Source: a virus. From it: 34,111 bases of DNA. The notes under the pieces are model-generated. The model ran no database searches. It was given only the letters and a program-made list of their open reading frames with translations, and was not told the DNA's origin. This document shows, one piece after another, positions 6,246 to 34,111 of this stretch. The stretch lies in the IMG/VR virus record IMGVR_UViG_3300006805_001809, positions 1 through 34,111 of that record. The stretch is one strand, 5' to 3'. The position numbers and the translations under genes are program-made. The first letter of the stretch is position 1; each line of letters starts with the position of its first letter.

Positions 6246-6641
6246 CTACGGTTTCTGTTTTTGCAGTTCCTGCGCGAACACCATGTTCGCGTTTCGCAAC
6301 CCTGCGGTTTCGATCTTCGCTTCAAGCGCCCGTAATCGCTGCTCTAAGGCGTCGTCCGAGAGCGTCTTCATCTTCGATTCGTATTCCATCCGCGTGAGAA
6401 TGTCTCGCACGTCGGACTGAATTTTCAACTGCGCGTCGCCGCGCCCACGGTCGAGCACCAACTGCCCGCCGACGATGGTCACGCACCCGACCACGATCGA
6501 GATCACCAGTTGCAGCGGAAAACTTAATCGGCTGGCATCGGTGACTCGCGCTGTTTCCCTTGGACTCACGTCATCAACCCCGAGTCGTGGTGACGGATAT
6601 TCTTCTATGGGATAGACGGACGCGGGCGCAGTTCCTATCAT
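6246..6641 (-). CDS. Single-span membrane protein with coiled-coil tail
   Basis: A 131-residue protein whose start overlaps the HTH gene stop as ATGA. It has a polar Pro-rich N-terminus, one transmembrane helix (LQLVISIVVGCVTIVGGQLV, about residues 43-62), then a charged coiled-coil-like region (ILTRMEYESKMKTLSDDALEQRLRALE) ending QELQKQKP. This architecture occurs in phage spanin- or holin-associated proteins. It is next to the other lysis-region membrane genes. The final codons include an A-run that could allow -1 slippage into the following Cys-rich frame. Confidence 0.6.
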   Translation of the reverse strand: MIGTAPASVYPIEEYPSPRLGVDDVSPRETARVTDASRLSFPLQLVISIVVGCVTIVGGQLVLDRGRGDAQLKIQSDVRDILTRMEYESKMKTLSDDALEQRLRALEAKIETAGLRNANMVFAQELQKQKP

Positions 6642-6850
6642 GTCAACACCGATTCTCGACGCCGAGGGCCGGTCGGCGGCTGCTCATCCTGCACTTCCGC
6701 GAGCCGCTTGAGGGCCATCTGTGACGGTTCCGCCTCTCCGTTTTCCCATCGTCTCACCGTGCGATTGCTTGCGCCGATGGCCTTTCTGAACTGCTCTCGA
6801 CTCAGGCCGAGACTATCCCGTAGCTCACGGACGTTGATCCGAGTCGCCAT
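6638..6850 (-). CDS. Small helix-turn-helix (XRE/Cro-type) protein
   Basis: A 70-residue protein. Residues ~5-52 match a Cro/C1-type HTH: INVRELRDSLGLSREQFRKA, IGASNRTVRRWENGEAEPS, QMALKRLAEV. The recognition helix would be SNRTVRRWENG. TAAGG lies just upstream of the ATG. It stands between structural and lysis genes, an unusual place for a lambda-like repressor, so it may regulate late or lysis expression, or the left operon. The C-terminus ends PPTGPRRRESVLT and carries the GPRRR peptide also seen in several virion-cluster proteins. Confidence 0.75.
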   Translation of the reverse strand: MATRINVRELRDSLGLSREQFRKAIGASNRTVRRWENGEAEPSQMALKRLAEVQDEQPPTGPRRRESVLT

Positions 6851-18544: not shown

Positions 18545-19171
18545 TTACAGAACGACGCCTGACTCTAACAGTTGCAGGAGCTTCGACAGTTCATCATCTC
18601 CCGCGAGTTGATCGACCGATTCGTCCTGAATCGGTGCGATACGCCTGCGCGGGCCTTCCGGCGCTTGAACGGGAAACGCCTCATTCGCGGCGGCGACGTA
18701 ATCGTACGGCTCGGACTGCTGCGACGCTCGCGCTCCACTCCCGGACGACTGCACGGGTGTCTGCGCTTGCGATTGATACGTCGTCTGTGGCTGCGTCGTC
18801 AGCCACGGCTCGAATCCATTCTGTCCGCTCCAGTGTAGAGACGAATCAGCGGACGCGGCGGCTGGCGTTGCGCTTCTTCCGATCGACTGCAACTGAGACA
18901 ACGGAGCATAGCTGCCATTCAGCATGTAGGCCGGCGTCTTTGACGCGGTGCCGTTTACGCGAGGGAGCGTGCTGCCCGCTTCGTTGCCTGGCGTCAATCC
19001 GCTCTTGTCGTACGGGCTGGCCCCGGCTTCGTTCGTGTACGGATTCTGAGTGTTGTTCGCGGCGGCGTACGCCGCATTTGCGGCCCAATCTTTCGGGCCT
19101 TGCGCGACACCCATCGCATCGATGGGCACCCAGTCTTCGTTGTACGAAACGCCGTTCCAGACTTTACCCAT
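18545..19171 (-). CDS. Low-complexity protein with GPRRR motif and C-terminal helix
   Basis: A 208-residue protein with GAGG 4 nt before the ATG. It is Asn/Gln/Ser/Ala/Tyr-rich and largely disordered (AANAAYAAANNTQNPYTNE, TTYQSQAQTPVQSSGSG). Near the C-terminus is FPVQAPEGPRRRIAPIQ, identical over nine residues (APEGPRRRI) to the protein at 11720-12502, followed by DDELSKLLQLLESGVVL, a terminal Leu-rich helix like those of other cluster members. It sits between the signal-peptide protein and the tail fibre. Likely virion-associated; function unknown. The 53-nt gap to the fibre gene contains the fibre ribosome binding site and a CCTTAAGG palindrome. Confidence 0.55.
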   Translation of the reverse strand: MGKVWNGVSYNEDWVPIDAMGVAQGPKDWAANAAYAAANNTQNPYTNEAGASPYDKSGLTPGNEAGSTLPRVNGTASKTPAYMLNGSYAPLSQLQSIGRSATPAAASADSSLHWSGQNGFEPWLTTQPQTTYQSQAQTPVQSSGSGARASQQSEPYDYVAAANEAFPVQAPEGPRRRIAPIQDESVDQLAGDDELSKLLQLLESGVVL

Positions 19172-23850: not shown

Positions 23851-25242
23851 CTACGACTCGGCCAAGTCCGAGATGCGGACGGCACTGGTCGGCGCGTCGC
23901 AGATCAGCTCGCCCTGCCAGTAGTATTCGAGGTCGAAGTAGGCCGAAGCCGTCTTCGTCAGGTACGGCACCTGTCCGTCGAACACTTCCGACAGCACCTG
24001 CGGCACTTCGTTTTCGCCGTGACCGATCCAGAAGTGCTCGGTGTTGAAGCCGATCAGGTTGTTCGCCTGGAAGAACGGATCGACGTAGATGCGGGTGCCG
24101 CTGAAGCGGTAGATCGTCTCGCCGTTCGAGTTCTCGCCCTGCTTCATGCCGGACTCGTCGCGACCGATGCCCACGCCGTCTCCAAACTCCTTTGCCTGCG
24201 ACAGCGCAAAGAACGTGTCTTCGCGAAGCGTCTCATGGTAGCGGCGAACGAGGTTCAGGTTCGTCATCCACGCATCGACCGGCTTGCCGCCGCGCTTGCG
24301 AACCGAGTCCGACGCCTGAAGCATCAGGTCTTCGGTCAGCGGACGGTTCGTGCCCGCGCCTGCGGGGTTGGTCAGCAGCGTGGCCTTCCAGAAGTCGTTG
24401 CCCGTGGTCGAGCGGTTGATGCCGCCCAGGTTGCCGACGACGGCCTTCGGGTTCGCGTCCGAAATCCACGCGAGGATGCCCGCCATGTGCAGCGAACCCG
24501 CCGAGGACACGGTGCCAGCAGCAGTGTAGTAATCGCCAGCCGCTGTGCCCGCTGCCGCCGAGGTCTGCGTGATCTCGTTCGTGATGACGTTCACCGCGAG
24601 AACCGCTTCACCGCTGATGATCTTGGTGTTGTCGTCCGAGTCGTCCATTAGGTCGATAACCATGCCGAGGTCAGTCAGCGGCATCGAGCCGACCGTGACG
24701 GTGGCCTGATTGTCGGCGGCAGGCAGAATACCCAGTTCGCCTCGCCCGTAGCCGAGCAAGTCGGCGTTCATCAGGCGGAACATGCGAGCGCGGAACGCGG
24801 TGTCGATGAAGTCGATCGCCCGCTCGAACGAGAAGCGGTCGTTGCGAGCGTCCTGCATCAACTTCCAGGTCACGTTGATCGCGCCGTAGAATTCCTGCAA
24901 CGAGAACGACGCTTCCTGCGTATCCGCCTGAGCGCGAGTCGTCGGCAGGGTGCCGCCTTCGGTGATACCCGCGAAGATGCCGGCGTTCTTCGTGCGGATC
25001 GGCATCAACTGCTGACCGCGACCGCCGAGGGGCATCTGTTTCCGCTTGAGGATGTTCCACAGCGCCACTTCGAGGGACGCCAGATACAGCACGCGATCGG
25101 TGCCGTACGTGTACTTGAGCATTTCGAGCACGTCGGACGTGCTGACGGCGAAGGCGTGACCTTCACCGAATGCGAAAAGGAAAATCAGGCTCAGGAATGC
25201 CACGGCCAGTTTCGGGCATCGAGCGAGAAGGTAAGTCACCAT
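23851..25242 (-). CDS. Major capsid protein (HK97-fold type) with signal-peptide-like N-terminus
   Basis: A 463-residue protein following the scaffold gene. The body is typical of phage major capsid proteins: an N-arm with SDVLEMLKYTYGTDRVLYL, a long spine-helix region (SFSLQEFYGAINVTWKLMQD ... FIDTAFRARMFRLMNADLL), a polymorphic beta-rich A-domain, and C-terminal strands (NGETIYRFSGTRIYVDPFFQ, HFWIGHGENEVPQVLSEV, ASAYFDLEYYWQGELI). The first 32 residues are unusual: basic YLLARCPK, a hydrophobic core LAVAFLSLIFLFAF, then EGHAFA before VSTSDV, which looks like a cleavable signal peptide. GGGAG stands 10 nt upstream of this ATG. It may be a propeptide removed during maturation. Confidence 0.85.
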   Translation of the reverse strand: MVTYLLARCPKLAVAFLSLIFLFAFGEGHAFAVSTSDVLEMLKYTYGTDRVLYLASLEVALWNILKRKQMPLGGRGQQLMPIRTKNAGIFAGITEGGTLPTTRAQADTQEASFSLQEFYGAINVTWKLMQDARNDRFSFERAIDFIDTAFRARMFRLMNADLLGYGRGELGILPAADNQATVTVGSMPLTDLGMVIDLMDDSDDNTKIISGEAVLAVNVITNEITQTSAAAGTAAGDYYTAAGTVSSAGSLHMAGILAWISDANPKAVVGNLGGINRSTTGNDFWKATLLTNPAGAGTNRPLTEDLMLQASDSVRKRGGKPVDAWMTNLNLVRRYHETLREDTFFALSQAKEFGDGVGIGRDESGMKQGENSNGETIYRFSGTRIYVDPFFQANNLIGFNTEHFWIGHGENEVPQVLSEVFDGQVPYLTKTASAYFDLEYYWQGELICDAPTSAVRISDLAES

Positions 25243-25343: not shown

Positions 25344-26258
25344 CTAGGTGTTCGCGCTTGCGCCGTTGCGAGCGCCGAACAGCATGTCTGCGATCTGCGT
25401 CTTCGAGGTCGCCGGGTTGTAGCGAGCGTTCCCGGACGGTGAGGCACCGCCACCGGGACGCACGAATCGGCGTTCCTTCGCACGCTTCAAGTCAGCCTGC
25501 TGCTGCGCGGTGAAAAACTTCTTCATCGCGTTCACGCGGCTCTGAAGCATCTGCGTAAATTCTTCCGGCTTGTCGAATTCCCAAGCGTCGAGGATGTCCT
25601 GCGCCACATCCTGAAGGAACGGGTCTTTCGCATCGTAACCTTCACCGAGCGCGGCAATCGCGGACGACACCCGCGACTGGCGCTCTTGACCCGAGCGTTC
25701 CTTCGCGAGCGTGCCGACGCCACCTTGCAACTTCTTGACAACGCCAATGAGTTGCTGATTTTGCTGCTGGAGATTCGCGACCGCCTGAGCCACCGGCCCG
25801 AGGGTGCCGTCGAGCGCCTGCGCGAGCTGCTGACCGCTGAGAATCGGCACGTCACGCACGCCAGCGAGCGGATCAACGCGCTGCTGCGGCTGCTGTGGCT
25901 GGCCGTGCTGCTGCTTCTGCTGCTGCAACGTCTGCGCGAGCTTGCGAAGATTGTTTTCGATTTCCTGGCGGGTGAGTTGCTTAACGTTGTCGTAGTCCGA
26001 CTTGGGGACGTACTGCGATGAGATGAATTCCTTCATCGTCATCGTTTTGCCGTCGCGGGTGATCTGCATGTCGTCGCTATACGCGACTGGAGCCGAGCCA
26101 CCCTGCGACGACGAACTCTGCTGCCCACCGTAGGACGCCTGACCGCCGCCCTGTTGACCGGCCTGCGATCCGCCGCCTGAACCACCCGCGCCTGACCCTG
26201 CGTCAGTGCCTTCGTGCGACACGCCTTGCGGCATCGAAGCGAGGTTGAGGTTGAGCAT
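25344..26258 (-). CDS. Capsid scaffolding protein
   Basis: A 304-residue, Gln/Gly/Ser-rich, mainly helical protein immediately before the capsid gene, the classical scaffold position. The N-terminus is Gly/Ser/Gln low complexity. Then comes KTMTMKEFISSQYVPKSDYD, a coiled-coil region full of Gln (KLAQTLQQQKQQHGQPQQ, VANLQQQNQQLIGVVKKL), and a C-terminal charged helix typical of scaffold capsid-binding ends (VNAMKKFFTAQQQADLKRAK, RRFVRPGGG). It has its own promoter (26266-26295). The ATG is 7 nt after the -10 hexamer without Shine-Dalgarno sequence, so a leaderless mRNA is predicted. Confidence 0.8.
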   Translation of the reverse strand: MLNLNLASMPQGVSHEGTDAGSGAGGSGGGSQAGQQGGGQASYGGQQSSSSQGGSAPVAYSDDMQITRDGKTMTMKEFISSQYVPKSDYDNVKQLTRQEIENNLRKLAQTLQQQKQQHGQPQQPQQRVDPLAGVRDVPILSGQQLAQALDGTLGPVAQAVANLQQQNQQLIGVVKKLQGGVGTLAKERSGQERQSRVSSAIAALGEGYDAKDPFLQDVAQDILDAWEFDKPEEFTQMLQSRVNAMKKFFTAQQQADLKRAKERRFVRPGGGASPSGNARYNPATSKTQIADMLFGARNGASANT

Positions 26259-26265
26259 GGGCGAG

Positions 26266-26295
26266 ATTATGCGGTAAGTGCTTGAAACGTGTCAA
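26266..26295 (-). promoter_or_regulatory. Promoter of the scaffold-capsid genes, predicted leaderless start
   Basis: Minus-strand TTGACA (26290-26295), an 18-nt spacer and CATAAT (26266-26271) give one of the best sigma70-like promoters in the window. The scaffold ATG (26256-26258) follows 7 nt after the -10. A further TTGACC half-site lies upstream (26301-26306). It re-establishes late transcription directly behind the replication cassette. Confidence 0.7.
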
Positions 26296-26320
26296 TCCCT
26301 GGTCAAGTGTCCACGATGAG

Positions 26321-26890
26321 CTAGGTCTGTTCTTCGCCCTCGAACACGTCCTGCGCGGATACTTCCTGCGCGATCGGCTTCATCGTCACCATCGGACGAA
26401 TCGCCTTCAATGCTTGCGCGACGACGGGATGTGTTTTCGCAACGTAGATTTCGCGCTGCGGTAGTTGGCCGCTAATGTATTGCGCGTATTCGGTGGCCGT
26501 GAGCGGCGTGCGATACGGAGGTTCGTTGTAGGCGGGAGGCGGCACTCCGCAATCAGGGCAGCGCACGTAGTTCGCATCGTACAGAAGCCCGTTCGACCAG
26601 AACGGTGCGCTGAGAATCCAAGTGTTGCCGTGGCACGTCGCGCACTCGTTGCGAGTCTGCTCGTACTTCGACATGCGCGACCGGATTGCATTCGTGATCT
26701 TTCCGAGTGCCGGCCAGAACGTGTCCGTCGCATCTTGAATCACCTGGTCTATCGCATTCGACAGCACATCGACGTGATAGTGCGACAGCGCCTTAAACCA
26801 GTCGCGCACGATTTCGTCGTGGTCGTCTTCATTGATGCGAAAGTGTTTTTGTAGACGCCCGAACTCGCGGTGAAATTCGTTGATCGTCAT
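26321..26890 (-). CDS. Helicase-loader-like protein (G39P-type N-terminus, zinc-binding C-terminus)
   Basis: A 189-residue protein whose start overlaps the initiator stop as ATGA. The N-terminal ~75 residues are helical: INEFHREFGRLQKHFRINED, EIVRDWFKALSHYHVDVLSN, AIDQVIQDATDTFWPALGK, ITNAIRSRM. This resembles the small N-terminal domain of SPP1 G39P-type loaders and other phage helicase-loader proteins (FxxEFxxL ... WFxAL ... FxPxLGxI). The middle has ECATCHGNTWIL and YVRCPDCGVPPP, forming a C-x2-C ... C-x2-C zinc site. The initiator-loader pair recalls lambda O and P. It would deliver the host DnaB helicase to the phage origin. Confidence 0.6.
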   Translation of the reverse strand: MTINEFHREFGRLQKHFRINEDDHDEIVRDWFKALSHYHVDVLSNAIDQVIQDATDTFWPALGKITNAIRSRMSKYEQTRNECATCHGNTWILSAPFWSNGLLYDANYVRCPDCGVPPPAYNEPPYRTPLTATEYAQYISGQLPQREIYVAKTHPVVAQALKAIRPMVTMKPIAQEVSAQDVFEGEEQT

Positions 26891-27825
26891 CGTCTCGCTC
26901 CGTTTCGTTTGTGGGCTTGTTCGGCTTTCACTTCGCGGTCAATGCGAGCGAGGTCTTCGGGTGTTAGTTCGCGCCGTTGCTTTTTCGCCTTCGTCGGAGC
27001 TGGCGCAATCCGACCAATCTGAATCAGCCACGCATCGAAGTGTTGAAGGAGCCACACCATGTCGCCCGGTAGTTTCCCTTCGGGTATGAGCGCCTTGACG
27101 TGTTCGTAGAATGAATTGATCGCTTCGCGAGTCTCGCCTGGAGTCTCGCCGTGGTATTTCTTCGCGAGGGTGTCGTACTGGTTGTAAGTCAGACAGAACT
27201 TGGAAGTCGGCCCACCGCAAATCGTGTGCTTCGCGTGATCTCTCGGGAGTGAACCAGGCTCATTCGCTCCGTCTCCGTTCCTTCGTTCAGCGAATCGCCT
27301 GTCGTGACCGCCGCCGTGATTTTCATTCGGCGCTGTTGACACGGAGGTTTCTCTTACTGTACGTACTGGTACCGCTTCAACGGTACGTACCTCTGTATCT
27401 GCTTCTGTATATGTATCTGTCTGTATTGACGTCGCTTGACAGTCATTGACAGTCAAGGTTGACAGACCTCGACGTTGGCGTGACTCGCGTTGCTTCTCTC
27501 GGTTGTATGCGCGAAGGGCTTCATCGTCTCGCATGGCGCGATAGATCGCGTGGCTCACAACGCGATACTGGAACTGCCCATCACGAATCAATCGGCACCC
27601 ATCGTGATCTGGATTTCTACTCTCTGGGTCAGGCTGGCAAAGGAAGTCAATCGCCTTCCTTACAGACTCCACGTCGGCACCGATAATTCCAGCCAGTAAT
27701 CGCGGATTTAGCTCTATAGAACTCTCGTATGTGTTGGCGATGACGTACGACCACACCGCGAAAACAGTTGGCCCAGAGCCACACAGTGAACCAGTAAAAG
27801 TTGACGCAAACAGTTTTCCGTACAT
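26887..27825 (-). CDS. Phage replication initiator (lambda O-like) candidate
   Basis: A 312-residue protein starting MYGKLFASTFTGSLCGSGPT. The N-terminal ~115 residues look like the winged-helix domain of phage O-type initiators: FAVWSYVIANTYES, ELNPRLLAGIIGADVESVRK, IDFLCQPDPESRNPDHDG, FQYRVVSHAIYRAMRDD, RAYNREKQRESRQRRG. The pattern QPDPESRxPDxDG is frequent in such phage proteins. The middle is polar and disordered, and the C-terminal domain (YNQYDTLAKKYHGETPGE ... DMVWLLQHFDAWLIQ) could bind the loader. The stretch encoding residues ~121-133 contains TTGAC repeats, like the origin inside the lambda O gene. It overlaps the loader gene by 4 nt. Confidence 0.65.
   Translation of the reverse strand: MYGKLFASTFTGSLCGSGPTVFAVWSYVIANTYESSIELNPRLLAGIIGADVESVRKAIDFLCQPDPESRNPDHDGCRLIRDGQFQYRVVSHAIYRAMRDDEALRAYNREKQRESRQRRGLSTLTVNDCQATSIQTDTYTEADTEVRTVEAVPVRTVRETSVSTAPNENHGGGHDRRFAERRNGDGANEPGSLPRDHAKHTICGGPTSKFCLTYNQYDTLAKKYHGETPGETREAINSFYEHVKALIPEGKLPGDMVWLLQHFDAWLIQIGRIAPAPTKAKKQRRELTPEDLARIDREVKAEQAHKRNGARR
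27359..27464. other. Putative replication origin inside the initiator gene
   Basis: Four TTGAC elements lie at 27426, 27436, 27446 and 27459. The second and third form a perfect 10-bp tandem repeat TTGACAGTCA (27436-27455), and the last is half of an imperfect palindrome AGTCAA-GG-TTGACA (27451-27464). Directly beside them, 27391-27430 is AT-richer and carries four CTGTAT units, a possible unwinding element. Next comes GTACCG/CGGTAC (27369-27374 and 27381-27386) with a 6-nt loop, flanked by two GTACGTAC copies (27359-27366, 27383-27390). Iterons with an adjoining easily melted stretch inside the initiator gene match the lambda ori plan. Confidence 0.5.
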
Positions 27826-27828
27826 GGG

Positions 27829-28062
27829 TTATTCGTCCCCTTCGAGGACAAGATTTCGACGGCATTTTGTGCAGCGGATCAGACGCGGTAGGGCGCGTTT
27901 TCCAGGCTCAAAAACGAGGGCTGACGAGCTGTCGTCGTTGCCAATTTGGGCCATAACCAGCCCGACAACAGGCAGGGGGGCTACAGAGCCGCAAATACAC
28001 TCGTAATTGATTGAGGGTGAGTCACTTGGGACGTTTCCCCAGTCGATAACTTGCCATGACAT
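27829..28062 (-). CDS. Small zinc-ribbon protein, first gene of the replication cassette
   Basis: A 77-residue protein from the ATG at 28062 (MSWQVIDWGNVPSD). An upstream in-frame ATG at 28089 lies within the operator sequence and is less likely. It contains NYECICGSVAPLP and near the C-terminus LPRLIRCTKCRRNLVLEGDE, making a C-x-C ... C-x2-C zinc ribbon. The tail is faintly like the Mu Com protein, a zinc-finger translational activator of mom, but similarity of such short motifs means little. It stands 3 nt before the initiator gene and directly behind the operator/promoter region, so it may be an early regulator. Confidence 0.65.
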   Translation of the reverse strand: MSWQVIDWGNVPSDSPSINYECICGSVAPLPVVGLVMAQIGNDDSSSALVFEPGKRALPRLIRCTKCRRNLVLEGDE

Positions 28063-28070
28063 GATCGCGC

Positions 28071-28119
28071 ATCTTGTCAAACTTGACATCGCGTGTCAAT
28101 ACGATTGTCAAGTTTGACA
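28071..28119 (-). promoter_or_regulatory. Operator array and promoter of the replication cassette
   Basis: Two perfect 14-bp palindromes, TGTCAA-AC-TTGACA (28075-28088) and TGTCAA-GT-TTGACA (28106-28119), are exact reverse complements of each other with centres 31 bp apart, about three helical turns. Between them is one more half-site (28094-28099). On the minus strand this is TTGACA and can serve as the -35, with CAAGAT (28071-28076) 17 nt away as a weak -10 and the ATG at 28062 8 nt later. A repressor on both palindromes would bracket the -35 and cover the -10. Confidence 0.65.
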
Positions 28120-28133
28120 GTCACGCCGTGACG

Positions 28134-30449
28134 CTACATCGGCCCTCGACCGCCACCATTACCACGCTGCGCGGCCTGACTCCGCATCAACTCTTGCATC
28201 GTCTCCACCAGTGAGGGCTGGCCGTTGCCGCCTTGTGCCTGGTCGCGTTGCAGGTCAACCTGCGTGATCGCGGCTTCTGTGGCTGTGGATGCGGCTTTCG
28301 CGGCGGCTTGCTGCGTGGCCATTGCGACCGCGTTCTGCATCATCTTCGAGTCCATGACGTTTTGCTGTTGATCGTGCAGGTCTTGCAGGAACTTCTGGCA
28401 CTTGTTGTAGAAGTCTACAAAGCCCTGTTTCACGGTCGTAGAGGCACGTAGCCACTCGGTCGTGGACATCACCGACTCGAATTCGTCCATCAACACGTCG
28501 TGGTCGTAGAATGGCATGGGGAGGTTCGGGTCGAGTTGTTCGCCGCGCTGAAGCACCATGATGAATTCGCGAGCGAGCTTCCGATACTGAGACTCGCGAT
28601 CTTCGCGGTTCGTATCGTTGTATTTCAGGTCGTCCGCGATCTTCGAGATGTCGATCTTTCCAGTGCGCCGGTTCATGTAGAGCGCGGCCAGTGGGCCTTC
28701 GAGACGTTCACGCACGCGAGCTTCGCGGAGTGACGCCAGTTCCGGCAGTAACGTCGCCCGGTCCACGGAAATCTCGTAGTCCCATCCATCTTTGAGAATC
28801 AGGGACTTGTTGAACACCATCACTTCGTCGCGAAGGTTCGCACCCGTGTAGTGCAGCGTCCGAATCGGCTCGTAGAACCGCTTGACGAGGTTCACGCGCT
28901 TGTTATGAATCTCCGCGAGCTGTTCGCCTAGGTGCGTGAACACCGGCCCGTCTTCAGAGTCGAGAATTTCCTGCAACATCGGAATCGCCATCGGCCCGCG
29001 CATCTGACCGGGGAATTTCCGCTGCGACAGGAGGTCAGCCGACCCCAGTGCTTCGATGAACTCGGTCGCGATGTTGATCGTCTGCGGAAAGAATGCGGGC
29101 AACTGTCCACGTTGAACGACCTGGACAAGGTTGTTGCCTTGATCGTCGATACCGCCTTCGATGATGCCGTGGTAGTCAGCCGGAATGTCTTCGCGCTTGA
29201 GGTCGCCGCCGATGGAGATCATCTCGTAGACCTGCGCGTTCGCGGCTTCTCCCAACTGCGACATGCGCTTGTTGAGGAACTTCTGACCCGGCACCATGTC
29301 CGTGATGAAGTCCGATGACCAGAACGACGTGGCGTTCGGTCGCCAGTGAATGTCGGTGCAGGGAATCTCGGGATAGTCCGCGAGATCGCCCTTGTCGAGA
29401 ATCGCGCCGTCCGGGGTGAACATGCACCGCGACCCTTGCGGGTTCTTCACCGAGCGCGGAGCGTAGCGCGTCAGGACGATGCACATATCCGGGTCGCCGG
29501 GCATCTGCGTTCCCTGAATCGCCGGCACCAGGTCTTTCAGGTTCATGTTCGCGACCACGGGCGAGTTGCCGTCCTTGATGACGGTTCGCACGATGTTCAG
29601 GTCGCCGTTGTATTGCACCTTCGCCGCAATCTCCGGGCCGAAGTTATCCTCGACCCATCCGCGAGTCTTCAACTGCGCGAGGTAGCACGCCTGATCGCCT
29701 GCGAGGTCACGAATGCGCTTCACCGATGCGTCGATAAAGAAATCCAGCGGGGAATACAGTTCACTCCCTACGTCGCCGGTCATCTGGACGGTTTCCTTCG
29801 GCTTGAAGCGTTCCTGCGGGGCACCAGCGGCGATCATCTTCGCGACGACAGACTCAGGGACTTCCGCGTCACCCTGCCACTGGTCTAGCCACACCAATTC
29901 CTTAATCGGCTGGCCCAGTTCATCGACTTGGCCGGTATCGACGTACTCCGGGAGCGATTCGTTGCCGACCTGTTCCATCCACGGCGTGTGCTCGATGACG
30001 ACGCCGCCGATGAGTAGCCAGAACAGGCGATTCCAGTGCTGCTGACCCTCTTTAACTTTGCGGTTCAAAGCAAGAATCAGTTTCGAGACGACATCGGCCT
30101 GATCCCACGCGGCAGGGTCGAGCGTGTTCGGCACGGCCTTGAACTTGTTGTCGATTGACCACAAGCGCCCGATCTTCCGCCAGGTCGCCCGTCCGATCAT
30201 GTTGAAGACGAGAAATAGCTTGTTCTTGTCCTCATCGTTCATCGGACGCCCGACGAGGTTGAACCCGTTCTGTTGTACGAAGTGCTCACCGAACACCATG
30301 CACAGGTTCGTCAGGACGCGCATCTCGACGCCGCCGGCACGACGCGCTTTCTGGTTCTGGAGTCGCCGCCAGTCCTTCGTGTATTCGTCTACGAGGTCGG
30401 CTTCGATCTTGTCGGCTTGCGTCTTACTGGTGGGCTGAGCTTTCGCCAT
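28134..30449 (-). CDS. Portal protein (long, P22-like type)
   Basis: A 771-residue protein with GGAG 7 nt upstream of the ATG. Length and features fit the large portals of short-tailed phages. There is a helical N-terminus (LVDEYTKDWRRLQNQKARRA), a wing region with beta strands (SELYSPLDFFIDASVKRIRD, DPDMCIVLTRYAPRSVKN), a clip/stem region with PNATSFWSSDFITDMVPGQK and FLNKRMSQLGEAANAQVYEM, and a C-terminal Gln/Ala-rich helical barrel (VAMATQQAAAKAASTATEAA). The portal forms the dodecameric DNA channel at one vertex and docks the terminase. It is followed by the operator array rather than directly by a scaffold gene. Confidence 0.85.
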   Translation of the reverse strand: MAKAQPTSKTQADKIEADLVDEYTKDWRRLQNQKARRAGGVEMRVLTNLCMVFGEHFVQQNGFNLVGRPMNDEDKNKLFLVFNMIGRATWRKIGRLWSIDNKFKAVPNTLDPAAWDQADVVSKLILALNRKVKEGQQHWNRLFWLLIGGVVIEHTPWMEQVGNESLPEYVDTGQVDELGQPIKELVWLDQWQGDAEVPESVVAKMIAAGAPQERFKPKETVQMTGDVGSELYSPLDFFIDASVKRIRDLAGDQACYLAQLKTRGWVEDNFGPEIAAKVQYNGDLNIVRTVIKDGNSPVVANMNLKDLVPAIQGTQMPGDPDMCIVLTRYAPRSVKNPQGSRCMFTPDGAILDKGDLADYPEIPCTDIHWRPNATSFWSSDFITDMVPGQKFLNKRMSQLGEAANAQVYEMISIGGDLKREDIPADYHGIIEGGIDDQGNNLVQVVQRGQLPAFFPQTINIATEFIEALGSADLLSQRKFPGQMRGPMAIPMLQEILDSEDGPVFTHLGEQLAEIHNKRVNLVKRFYEPIRTLHYTGANLRDEVMVFNKSLILKDGWDYEISVDRATLLPELASLREARVRERLEGPLAALYMNRRTGKIDISKIADDLKYNDTNREDRESQYRKLAREFIMVLQRGEQLDPNLPMPFYDHDVLMDEFESVMSTTEWLRASTTVKQGFVDFYNKCQKFLQDLHDQQQNVMDSKMMQNAVAMATQQAAAKAASTATEAAITQVDLQRDQAQGGNGQPSLVETMQELMRSQAAQRGNGGGRGPM

Positions 30450-31516: not shown

Positions 31517-32146
31517 CTACAATTTCCCGAGATGTATGTCTCGACCGTCTCGCTTCTCGCCTGTCTGCATCCGCTGTTCGATCCAGTGGGTCGCTGGCCG
31601 CTTCAAAATAGCCTTCGCGATCGGTCTACGCGAGATGACTTGTTCAAGGGCTGAGAGCGTGTAGTCCTGTCCTGTGGCCCTGACTTTGTACGCCGAGGAT
31701 TCTTCGGGGGGCCAGCGAGCGCGTTGAATTTCGTTCGGCAGGACGGTCAACCACGGCGCGAGGAAGATTTTGTTGTCGTGGAAGTATTCTCGCGTGACTT
31801 CGGTTCGCAGCTCCGCGCCGTGCCCGATGTTGCGCTTCAGGCGCATCTTGCAGCGTTGCATTTCCTTCGAGAACTCGGTGTCAGGGTCTACCCACGCAGA
31901 ACACCGCGAGTCTTTGCCGGCGTAGCTTCGCCAGGTGCGAACGACTAGCTCGCCCCACTCGACGGTCGTCAATCCCGATAGTTCGATTTCTCCATCACCT
32001 ACGTAGTGATAGTTCGGAATTTCCTCTACCACAAGCACCGGATAGCCGGGAAGCAAGGCGAGGATCGCGGCAGACGAAAACCTCCCGACAGACGCACCCA
32101 GTTGATACTCGGTGTGTGCCGGGAGGCGTAACAGATCACGGGTCAT
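31517..32146 (-). CDS. Terminase large subunit, nuclease domain as a separate gene
   Basis: A 209-residue protein that looks like the C-terminal RNase H-type nuclease half of a large terminase. It has an initial strand hairpin (TEYQLGASVGRFSSAAILAL), PVLVVEEIPNYHY, a helix TTVEWGELVVRTWRSYAG, the AWVDPDTEFS segment with Asp87, then LRTEVTREYFHDNKIFLAPW, EIQRARWPPEESSAYKVRAT and GQDYTLSALEQVISRRP with Asp161 in the place of the last catalytic Asp. The first catalytic Asp (usual x-D-x-G) is Ser19 here. It follows the ATPase gene after two tiny genes. Resolving concatemers at packaging would require both proteins to associate. Assignment is by motif order and neighbours. Confidence 0.6.
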   Translation of the reverse strand: MTRDLLRLPAHTEYQLGASVGRFSSAAILALLPGYPVLVVEEIPNYHYVGDGEIELSGLTTVEWGELVVRTWRSYAGKDSRCSAWVDPDTEFSKEMQRCKMRLKRNIGHGAELRTEVTREYFHDNKIFLAPWLTVLPNEIQRARWPPEESSAYKVRATGQDYTLSALEQVISRRPIAKAILKRPATHWIEQRMQTGEKRDGRDIHLGKL

Positions 32147-32152
32147 CGGGCG

Positions 32153-32281
32153 TTACTTCTCGGGGCCAGCTTCCGACTCAAGCTTCTGGTGCAGCTTGCG
32201 GAGTTCGTCCGCGTCGTCGTGTTCAGCGGCCTTCTTCTTCGGTTCCGGCTTCTCGTCCGGTGTCTCGTCTTTCTTGCTCAT
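32153..32281 (-). CDS. Tiny charged protein between the terminase halves
   Basis: A 42-residue protein with a strong GGAGG ribosome binding site 5 nt before its ATG. It is highly charged and disordered to helical (MSKKDETPDEKPEPKKKA, DDADELRKLHQKLESEAG). The better ribosome binding site than most neighbours suggests it is really translated. It separates the ATPase gene from the nuclease gene by its own length plus 6 nt. A bridging or regulatory role in packaging is imaginable but not shown. Confidence 0.55.
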   Translation of the reverse strand: MSKKDETPDEKPEPKKKAAEHDDADELRKLHQKLESEAGPEK

Positions 32282-32312
32282 CACTACCTCCAGCGATTGA
32301 TTGTACGGCAAC

Positions 32313-32432
32313 TTACAGGAACATCCACCACAGCCACGGGAAAAACACACGGATCGGCCACGGGCCGGTGAACTCGCGGCATTCGCCCGTGCGGGAGTTG
32401 CAGATCATCGGAACGACAATTTTCTCGTACAT
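32313..32432 (-). CDS. 39-residue protein with Trp/Phe-rich hydrophobic end
   Basis: A short frame starting at the ATG of 32432, which overlaps the ATPase stop (TAATG), the same coupling seen elsewhere. It reads MYEKIVVPMICNSRTGEC and ends PWPIRVFFPWLWWMFL. The last 13 residues hold four aromatic Trp/Phe clusters and would insert in a membrane or bind a protein groove. It is too short for usual gene callers. The overlap and the absence of any other frame in this stretch support it. Function unknown. Confidence 0.45.
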   Translation of the reverse strand: MYEKIVVPMICNSRTGECREFTGPWPIRVFFPWLWWMFL

Positions 32433-33406
32433 TACTGGATAGCCTCCGCTGCGAGCCTGATTGCCTGTTCATCCCACAGTTGAGGAAAGTTCAACGGGGA
32501 GAATATCTGCGCTTCCTTCTCAAAGTCGTACACCGCGCCGATGTGTCGATTGACCTTGCCGCCCCACGCGACCGCGAACCGCTCCCGCGTCATCAAGCCA
32601 CCTTTATCAGGATCATCACGATCTTTGGCGGCTTGGTCGAACGTGAACGGGTTGCATTGCGCGTCAACGTCGCATGAGCAGTGATAGTAAGGGTCTTTCC
32701 CGTGCGCTTTGTCGTGAAGTTCTCGCACCCAAGCGCGGTCAGGCGTTGTAGCGAAGACGCCAAAGCCGTCACGCTGGCGGACGTTCTGCGCGACGTGCGT
32801 CCAGACATGCAGACCTGGTAACTGGTACGCTTCGGCAAAGTAGTAGGCATCGCGAGTCTTGCCCTTCATCGTTTCCGACTTCCGCGAAGCGCGGTAGCTC
32901 TTGCACTCGAAGTGAGCGCCGTTTTCGAGTGTAAACCACATCGCGCCATCTTTCTTATTGTTTCTTAGCGACGTGGTGGCAAGTCCTAGACCCCTCTCGG
33001 ACAACAGAAACTCAAGCAAGTAGTTGAATTCAGGCTCGCAGGTGTCGTATTCAAGGCCGATGATGTCTACCGCACCATCGACGCCAGCGTAGCCGCTCAT
33101 CCACATCGCCCCGCTCCATGACTTCCCGCCCTTGAAGCCGGCGAGGTCAGCGAGAACGTGAGCCGGCCCACCGGGACGCGGCACAATCAGCCGTGGTTCG
33201 ATCGCCTCATCTTCCAGCATAACTAACTGCGATGGTTGGCCTGGTTGCGGAGCCTGATCGGTCAGCGTCCAGCCCTCACCCGCGAGAATCCATTCGGCCT
33301 GATGGGGAAACGGCGTGATCTCGTACTTCGACCAAACCTTGCGGCGGAACTCGTTGACGAGCGCGTGACGACGGGCATTAACTGATTGACGTGACGGCAA
33401 AATCAT
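32432..33406 (-). CDS. terL: Terminase large subunit, ATPase domain
   Basis: A 324-residue protein whose ATG overlaps the Mom-like gene stop (ATGA). It carries an adenine-binding FPHQAEWI segment (residues 33-40), a Walker A-type ADLAGFKGGKSWSG (Lys95, Ser96), a Walker B-type strand AYYFAEAYQL with Glu192 as catalytic carboxylate, and a GVFATTPD coupling-type motif near 217-223. This is the DNA-translocating motor that fills the prohead through the portal. The frame stops (TAA) just after the linker (FPQLWDEQAIRLAAEAIQ), where a fused nuclease domain would normally start. The nuclease is encoded separately 285 nt further on. Confidence 0.85.
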   Translation of the reverse strand: MILPSRQSVNARRHALVNEFRRKVWSKYEITPFPHQAEWILAGEGWTLTDQAPQPGQPSQLVMLEDEAIEPRLIVPRPGGPAHVLADLAGFKGGKSWSGAMWMSGYAGVDGAVDIIGLEYDTCEPEFNYLLEFLLSERGLGLATTSLRNNKKDGAMWFTLENGAHFECKSYRASRKSETMKGKTRDAYYFAEAYQLPGLHVWTHVAQNVRQRDGFGVFATTPDRAWVRELHDKAHGKDPYYHCSCDVDAQCNPFTFDQAAKDRDDPDKGGLMTRERFAVAWGGKVNRHIGAVYDFEKEAQIFSPLNFPQLWDEQAIRLAAEAIQ

Positions 33407-33984
33407 AAGGCGTAGACGTAGCGATGCTTGGATGCCCTCGGGAGTCGGCGCAGTTCAACGGACGCTGGAGCGTGCGCTGCGCGTGAATAACGCTTCCGCG
33501 TAGGCCCAAGCAGATCGGATGAATCCTCTACCATGTCGAAGCGAGGTGTCCGCCGGTTGTCATCTGTGCGCCCGTCCTGTTTCCAGTTAGACGCCTTATA
33601 GATTAGACCCTTATGTCCAAACGACGGGTCGGCGTAGCTAACGAGCAGGCCAACGTCTCTGTGGTGCGAGCGAACGTAGCGAATAGCCTGACCAATCACA
33701 AAGCTCTCAGTGTTGGCAGGTAGTAAGTCTTCAAGATAAAGCCGCGCCAGTTCCCATACGACGCATCCATAACGCCTCGCCGTCTCACGCGGTGGCATCG
33801 CGAAGCACACCATGCCGCGAGAAACGCCATCAATGACGACAGCGAGAACAAGTGTGACGACTGCTGGACGGCGGCGGAGGTAGTGAGCGCGGAAGAAGCG
33901 ATCGCACTCGGTGATGGTGCTGGGGCGAATAACGGTGCGGTGCCGCCATGATGAGTCGAAACACGGGCCAACGGGTCGGGGCAT
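33403..33984 (-). CDS. mom: Mom-like DNA modification protein
   Basis: A 193-residue protein beginning MPRPVGPCFDSSWRHRTV. It matches the phage Mu Mom type, a GNAT-related enzyme that modifies adenine in phage DNA and so protects it from host restriction. Shared elements are HYLRRRPAVVTLVLAVVIDG, GMVCFAMPPRETARRYG, VVWELARLYLEDLLPANTES, FVIGQAIRYVR, and the diagnostic VSYADPSFGHKGLIYKASNW. I chose the ATG at 33984. The frame is open 40 codons upstream, but that part is AT-rich promoter DNA. It is coupled by ATGA to the terminase gene, so modification and packaging are co-expressed. The C-terminal ~50 residues are basic. Confidence 0.85.
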   Translation of the reverse strand: MPRPVGPCFDSSWRHRTVIRPSTITECDRFFRAHYLRRRPAVVTLVLAVVIDGVSRGMVCFAMPPRETARRYGCVVWELARLYLEDLLPANTESFVIGQAIRYVRSHHRDVGLLVSYADPSFGHKGLIYKASNWKQDGRTDDNRRTPRFDMVEDSSDLLGPTRKRYSRAAHAPASVELRRLPRASKHRYVYAL

Positions 33985-33995
33985 TGTGAGTGCGG

Positions 33996-34046
33996 AGTGT
34001 AGCACGATGGAGTGAAATAAATAGATGTTGACAAATCGAAAGTCAA
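33996..34046 (-). promoter_or_regulatory. AT-rich promoter region upstream of mom and terminase
   Basis: The last ~100 nt are clearly more AT-rich than the rest. Minus-strand TTGACT (34041-34046), 17 nt and TATTTA (34018-34023) form one candidate promoter. A TACACT preceded by TGC (33996-34001), 11 nt before the ATG, is an extended -10 alternative. A TTGACA on the plus strand (34028-34033) lies in the spacer as a possible operator half-site. A CATAAT at 34091-34096 may belong to a further promoter whose -35 is outside the window. Confidence 0.5.
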
Positions 34047-34111
34047 GAGGGTGATAATAACGAAGGTTAACATAACGTGGTAATGACCAGATTATGTAAA
34101 CCAAAGGCGAA

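Follow-up and report, generated by a model that had tools for sequence, protein, structure and literature searches.

The order of portal, scaffold and capsid genes is usually conserved, and a locus at which other genes lie between the first two raises the question of what these genes are and how they came to be there. The sequence considered here (the window, meaning the whole stretch of DNA analysed) is a virus record from IMG/VR, linear and 34,111 bases long, and represents a single metagenomic contig without reads. Its first-pass annotation placed a replication cassette between portal and scaffold, and this gene content and order were borne out, with all of the genes on the minus strand. 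From the features set out below, we consider it likely that the locus is a compact lambda/SPP1-like replicon module within the head-gene cluster, made up of an operator/promoter, a CxxC protein, an initiator with an internal origin and a loader.

Replication genes among the head genes

Read in the direction of transcription on the minus strand, the gene order is Mom-family, terminase ATPase, small genes, portal-like, cassette, scaffold-like, capsid and further genes. The principal features are as follows.

32432-33406, minus: terminase large subunit, ATPase part (phrog_2, E 1.9e-7)
28134-30449, minus: portal-like gene above the cassette, assigned mainly by position (weak profile matches to phrog_156, E 0.0046, and phrog_332, E 0.0044)
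27829-28062, minus: CxC/CxxC protein whose gene opens the cassette, with cysteines of zinc-ribbon type (first ATG at 28089)
26887-27825, minus: putative replication initiator, with winged-helix N-domain (about residues 1-95), disordered linker and helical C-domain (from model, fold search and family context)
26321-26890, minus: putative helicase loader, G39P/lambda-P in type, which carries two CxxC pairs (residues 83-86 and 111-114; from phrog_9804, phrog_2289 and fold)
25344-26258, minus: scaffold-like gene, from its place between portal-like and capsid genes, its composition and phrog_4150 'virion structural protein' (E 0.0024)
23851-25242, minus: major capsid protein (phrog_14242, E 3e-19; Pfam SU10_MCP, E 1e-4, under the Pfam cut-off)

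The cassette is separated from the portal-like gene by 71 bp and from the scaffold-like gene by 62 bp, the initiator and loader genes overlap by 4 bp, and no phage helicase gene follows the loader in the window. Near the other end of the window lie genes that we take, from a reading of the ORFs, to be ERF-like and YqaJ-like recombination genes. Other features of the contig may be recorded here. The Mom-family (DNA modification) gene (33403-34104, minus; Pfam Mom, E 2e-23) is situated just upstream of the terminase, whose large subunit is apparently split (31517-33406, minus) into a 324-residue ATPase part, a 65-residue ORF and a 209-residue nuclease-like gene. Profile comparison gave no confirmation of the nuclease half; when profiles of the portal, putative nuclease and terminase of the window were set against the alignments of relatives, no match was returned, and sequence searches of the PDB with the portal and putative nuclease returned none that was meaningful. 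A short GPRRR motif is found in several proteins of this phage, near the C-terminus or in the body (6638-6850, 7098-8030, 11720-12523 and 18545-19171, minus).

The window initiator matched nothing in Pfam or PHROGs, and a search of cultured phages likewise gave no usable match. AlphaFold2 modelled its N-domain as a winged helix (pLDDT about 90 or more over residues ~11-90) and VIA aligned it with CRP-type domains at Z up to 8.6; the winged helix is a common fold and says nothing on function. The linker is predicted to be disordered and the C-domain helical. Scans with N-domain alignments yielded relatives, most of them viral contigs and two of them bacterial MAG contigs; from a reading of 44 initiator genes, the removal of 7 near-identical ones left 37 members for counting, window included. 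The C-domain of one relative (L014) matched phrog_391 'replication initiation O-like' (E 5e-19), together with DnaD-like and replisome-organizer families, while the later part of another (L009, query from residue 95 to 179 onward) matched 164 phage records, the best 20 of which carry annotations such as RepO, replication initiation protein, replisome organizer and primosomal protein I, and include hypothetical and evidently mislabelled genes. The genes directly after the initiator in relatives include DnaB-like helicases (L016, L034, L039, L041), primase-helicases (L011, L038), a DnaC-like loader (L066) and G39P-like genes; several relatives have no helicase- or loader-like gene at this place. 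At the sensitivities applied, searches with N-domains of the group (window, L014) brought up none in the cultured-phage collection.

The loader gave no match in Pfam and, in PHROGs, matches to phrog_9804 (E 0.0012) and phrog_2289 'helicase loader' (E 0.17). When an alignment (A7) of its N-domain with the genes at the same place in four relatives was compared as a profile with 177,635 PDB sequences, SPP1 G39P (1no1) ranked first (E 0.015). The AlphaFold2 model, of 79 residues from 5 sequences (pLDDT 78), retrieved G39P (E 0.19) and lambda P (E 0.28) at ranks 1 and 2 in Foldseek, at weak E-values and a probability of 0.99; VIA aligned it with lambda P at Z 9.9 (76 residues, 3.2 A) and with G39P at Z 8.0 (65 residues, 1.9 A). 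In leave-one-out comparison of ten loader-like genes, six were recovered at E<0.01, and L006 and L013 gave 0.17 and 0.38; L046, which itself matches phrog_2289 (E 1.7e-4), was not recovered, nor was the window loader by the profile of the others (E 2.7). A cultured-phage search with the loader gave nothing usable, its one match being at E 0.3 in an unannotated 6.2-kb record. A homologue of the CxxC gene ends beside the initiator start in 23 of the 37 deduplicated members, 9 of these being profile seeds; family scans of the protein (Pfam, PHROGs) gave nothing usable.

These results bear on the functions first assigned to the three proteins. The G39P-type loader is upheld by the profile match to the PDB, the Foldseek ranking and the VIA scores, and its predicted fold supports a G39P/lambda-P type. 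The assignment as an O-like initiator is supported by the N-domain, the family context (O-like or RepO C-domains of relatives) and the embedded origin-like DNA described below; an O-family match of its own was not obtained. For the supposed zinc protein, the CxC/CxxC cysteines of zinc-ribbon type are present, the label itself being read from sequence. The opposite outcome, in which the initiator and loader prove to be structural proteins or packaging accessories, did not occur.

Position of the cassette in related contigs

The comparison of gene order envisaged in the first-pass annotation was made on 24 deduplicated contigs on which both terminase and initiator could be placed, the window being left out; classes were assigned by hand and contigs were taken as linear. 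For the most part the initiator lies upstream of the terminase. In 14 of the 24 it is on the same strand and less than 10 kb upstream (L007, L008, L009, L015, L017, L031, L032, L034, L036, L039, L041, L045, L053 and L060, the terminase match in L036 being weak at E 4e-4), and in three it lies 16-22 kb upstream (L038, L046, L058). Three more have it 14-30 kb downstream (L014, L029, L056), and four on the opposite strand (L030, L051, L062, L066). In the window, 4.6 kb separate the terminase ATPase gene from the start of the initiator downstream of it, an arrangement seen in none of the 24. By our reading of the ORFs, scaffold-like or capsid-like genes follow the portal in L003, L007, L008 and L009, with the cassette absent there. 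A partial parallel is offered by L006 (4534-7390), in which the cassette, on the opposite strand, is directly beside a scaffold-like gene (phrog_479, of unknown function) and a capsid gene (phrog_334, E 6e-107), the portal being far from it on the contig. Scans of viral contigs with the window loader, portal, capsid and terminase found no relatives sharing these head genes from which the ancestral order might be read, and a cultured-phage search with the capsid gave nothing usable.

It is conceivable that the cassette stayed in place and that the terminase-portal block moved upstream of it, nothing having been inserted into the head genes. The 14 contigs in which the initiator precedes the terminase by no more than 10 kb lend themselves to this account, since moving either block yields the window order, but the placement of the initiator elsewhere in the other 10 (at a great distance upstream or downstream, or on the opposite strand) is a better, if not decisive, fit to a mobile cassette; we accord displacement of the terminase-portal block a substantial minority chance of being correct. 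The cassette had been regarded from the outset as a movable module. In keeping with this, the same gene set (CxxC gene with initiator, in the 23 members mentioned) recurs in different genomic places, its positions varying over the 24 contigs, and it may have moved as a unit.

Candidate origin and border signals

An addition to the earlier annotation, which had missed it, is a candidate origin inside the initiator gene (about 27390-27464), where TGTCA iterons are followed by a (CAGANN)n tract in linker-coding DNA.

27436-27464, minus: iterons, with TGTCA three times and a tandem pair of TGACTGTCAA
27390-27425, minus: CAGANN tract, ACAGACAGATACATATACAGAAGCAGATACAGAGG; candidate unwinding or single-strand element, from family comparison

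The tract is approximately the third least stable 80-100-bp segment in the window; GC skew gave no pointer to an origin. Codons 110-175 of the window gene contain four TGTCA words; synonymous shuffles average 0.91, and four were reached in 1 of 500. At least three CAGANN units occur in 20 of the 37 members versus 0.0002 of 6,616 background windows, and the combination of iterons and tract (two or more tract units, preceded within 110 nt by two or more iteron words) in 17 of 37 deduplicated members versus, again, 0.0002 of 6,616. The full combination is missing in 20 of the 37, and L017, L051, L058, L059, L062 and L066, among others, have neither component. Scanning the viral collection with the DNA pattern returned nine stretches, eight of them inside initiator genes. 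Six were on known contigs, as expected of a pattern written from known members; the remaining three (L068, L074, L072) comprise two in genes whose N-domain is of a distant form (L068 and L074, E 4e-20 and 3e-17) and one in a gene retaining only the end of that domain. In the last of these contigs (L072, 6068-7441), one frame fuses a different upstream protein, with a low-complexity tract of its own, to the N-domain end and the origin-like DNA, as if initiators had been exchanged in the linker. Iterons often vary in copy number; the near-identical initiator genes of L045, L047, L048 and L049 carry in the linker a different repeat, of 21 bp (AGTAATCAATAGTAAGCAGCC), the copy number of which varies between them.

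The TGTCA/CAGANN stretch might alternatively be no more than a low-complexity protein linker (EAEA, SDSD and QSQS runs), with the true origin elsewhere. The linker is indeed predicted to be disordered, and dipeptide runs alone can yield hexanucleotide repeats, the CAGANN run being kept in 246 of 500 synonymous shuffles for L006 and 143 of 500 for L008. Against this, most members with iterons have more iteron words than their synonymous shuffles. The words occur in differing reading frames, and where the initiator ends early, at about 124 residues (L029 and L030), iterons and tract persist as non-coding DNA past the stop codon. These last two properties argue for an element maintained at the level of DNA, and we hold a mere linker to be improbable. 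In the preferred reading, that of an origin embedded in the initiator gene, the iteron-plus-(CAGANN)n element is conserved as DNA.

The same TGTCA word is common to the intragenic iterons and the operator at the upper border of the cassette. The border signals are as follows.

28106-28119: operator palindrome 1, exact match (TGTCAAACTTGACA on the minus strand)
28075-28088: operator palindrome 2, exact match, 31 bp from palindrome 1
28071-28099, minus: possible cassette promoter, TTGACA, 17 nt, CAAGAT, with a weak -10 (3 of 6), from sequence inspection
26266-26295, minus: promoter-like site at the lower border, TTGACA-18-CATAAT, 7 nt before the scaffold ATG
26288-26296 (minus) and 28092-28100: 9-bp border repeat, ATTGACACG, with no further copies in the window

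The 14-bp palindrome TGTCAARYTTGACA occurs exactly twice in the 34,111-base window, both times within the 71-bp gap; allowing up to three mismatches gives four sites, which is within chance. Of 43 TGTCA/TGACA words in the window, the densest 80-bp cluster (six) is in the operator gap and the next (three) is the intragenic one; the 10-mer found in tandem in the initiator gene also has a copy overlapping operator palindrome 1. When the 162-bp upstream region was shuffled 1,000 times with its dinucleotides preserved, no shuffle reached six TGTCA/TGACA words (mean 0.77). Among the upstream regions of 13 other members, those of L003, L006 and L009 exceed shuffles (P<0.05), those of L007, L014 and L015 are borderline (0.058-0.068), and no such enrichment was found in the other seven tested. 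The possible cassette promoter was missed by the promoter scan. The lower site is the best sigma-70-like match of the window (11/12, with three others reaching 10/12), and with 7 nt between its -10 and the ATG a leaderless start would follow. Of the four best promoter-like sites, three (26295, 13127 and 3848, minus) have a spacer of 18 nt and are followed by a start codon 3-12 nt past the -10, as in leaderless messages. The notion that the cassette has its own control at both borders is supported in terms of predicted, promoter-like sequences (the operator cluster and the best sigma-70-like match), and a fresh promoter leading into the scaffold gene is predicted by the best-scoring site of the window, although the region as a whole holds about as many promoter-like sites as chance would give (4 versus 3.2 expected).

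The 9-bp border repeat, a possible trace of movement of the cassette, contains the -35 word, and equal sharing arose in 16 of 1,000 shuffles. That this repeat, at both borders of a single metagenomic contig, betrays a chimeric join and the cassette's position is an assembly artefact is very improbable, since 9 bp is short for a mis-join, all genes are on one strand with short gaps and promoter-like sites at both borders, and in a separate contig (L006) the cassette, there encoded on the opposite strand, also neighbours a scaffold-like gene.

Relation to known replicons and proposed mechanism

The closest counterparts of the cassette are compact initiation modules of other phages. In the O-ori-P module of lambda and its Stx-phage relatives the initiator gene is followed by the loader gene, as in the window, and iterons and an adjacent tract form the origin in the middle of the initiator gene (PMC7466680); the fold of lambda P is resembled by that of the window loader. 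When the window is set against features of the lambda O type, a winged-helix N-domain is found, iterons and tract lie inside the initiator gene (as sequence), and homology of the initiator is not seen. The window initiator cannot be assigned to the O family, so the cassette may be said to work like the lambda O module and not to be a member of its class. It differs also in its short TGTCA iterons and CAGANN tract, in having its own operator and CxxC gene, and in lying between portal and scaffold. Bacillus phage SPP1 has the same layout, gene 38 - oriL - gene 39, with the origin within the initiator gene and the loader next (PMC6316719), and the window loader resembles G39P. Genes 38-40 of SPP1, however, include a helicase of the phage's own, whereas none follows the window loader, and they form an early replication group outside the head cluster. 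In Francisella phage KIRK, a putative repeat-bearing origin lies in a replication gene beside an Inhibitor_G39P gene (fhv_0043/fhv_0042; PMC7924643). This likeness, of an origin inside a replication gene beside a G39P-type gene, is drawn by description only, and the KIRK genes belong to a regulatory/replication region and not, as in the window, to the head genes.

Beyond phages, the oriC of B. subtilis has DnaA-trios and a DnaD element, repeated short words beside initiator boxes that are read single-stranded (PMC10201434). Tracts of the CAGAAG type are runs of NAG triplets and so resemble these, whereas CAGATA and CAGACT tracts keep every second triplet only and the initiator is of a different class; the relation of the tract to DnaA-trios and the DnaD element is an analogy, not membership. 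The DnaD TnnT motif was rejected as a general explanation of the tract, as CAGATA-type tracts lack TnnT on inspection. Among the open-licence papers listed by our literature searches we recognised none that describes this arrangement or the tract.

The best account of the locus is a lambda/SPP1-like replicon in an unusual place, whose initiator is not assignable to the lambda or SPP1 families. In the mechanism that we propose, the initiator would bind the TGTCA inverted pairs at its own promoter and limit its own synthesis, and would bind the TGTCA repeats in its own gene and open the adjacent tract. The loader, which no phage helicase gene follows here, would then deliver host DnaB. The lower-border promoter would serve the scaffold and capsid genes, the cassette having presumably come between portal and scaffold in this phage or a forebear. 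By analogy with DnaA-trios and the DnaD element, we raise the tentative and rather doubtful possibility that, in a class of phage origins lying inside initiator genes, the (CAGANN)n tract serves for recognition as a single strand, read by initiator or loader after melting, and that, with the replicon lying between portal and scaffold, occupancy of the TGTCA/TTGACA sites by the initiator could also time scaffold and capsid synthesis. On this view the DNA word stays constant even where the dipeptide that it encodes varies (EA, SD, QS, TD) or the frame is no longer coding. The coupling of genome replication with head production suggested in the first-pass annotation may be a consequence of the cassette's position.

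If the replicon reading is correct, a complete initiation module with its own origin can sit inside the portal-scaffold-capsid order. TGTCA iterons with a CAGANN tract would then constitute a recognisable origin signature for this initiator group, from which origins in uncultured phages could be predicted and tested on small plasmids.
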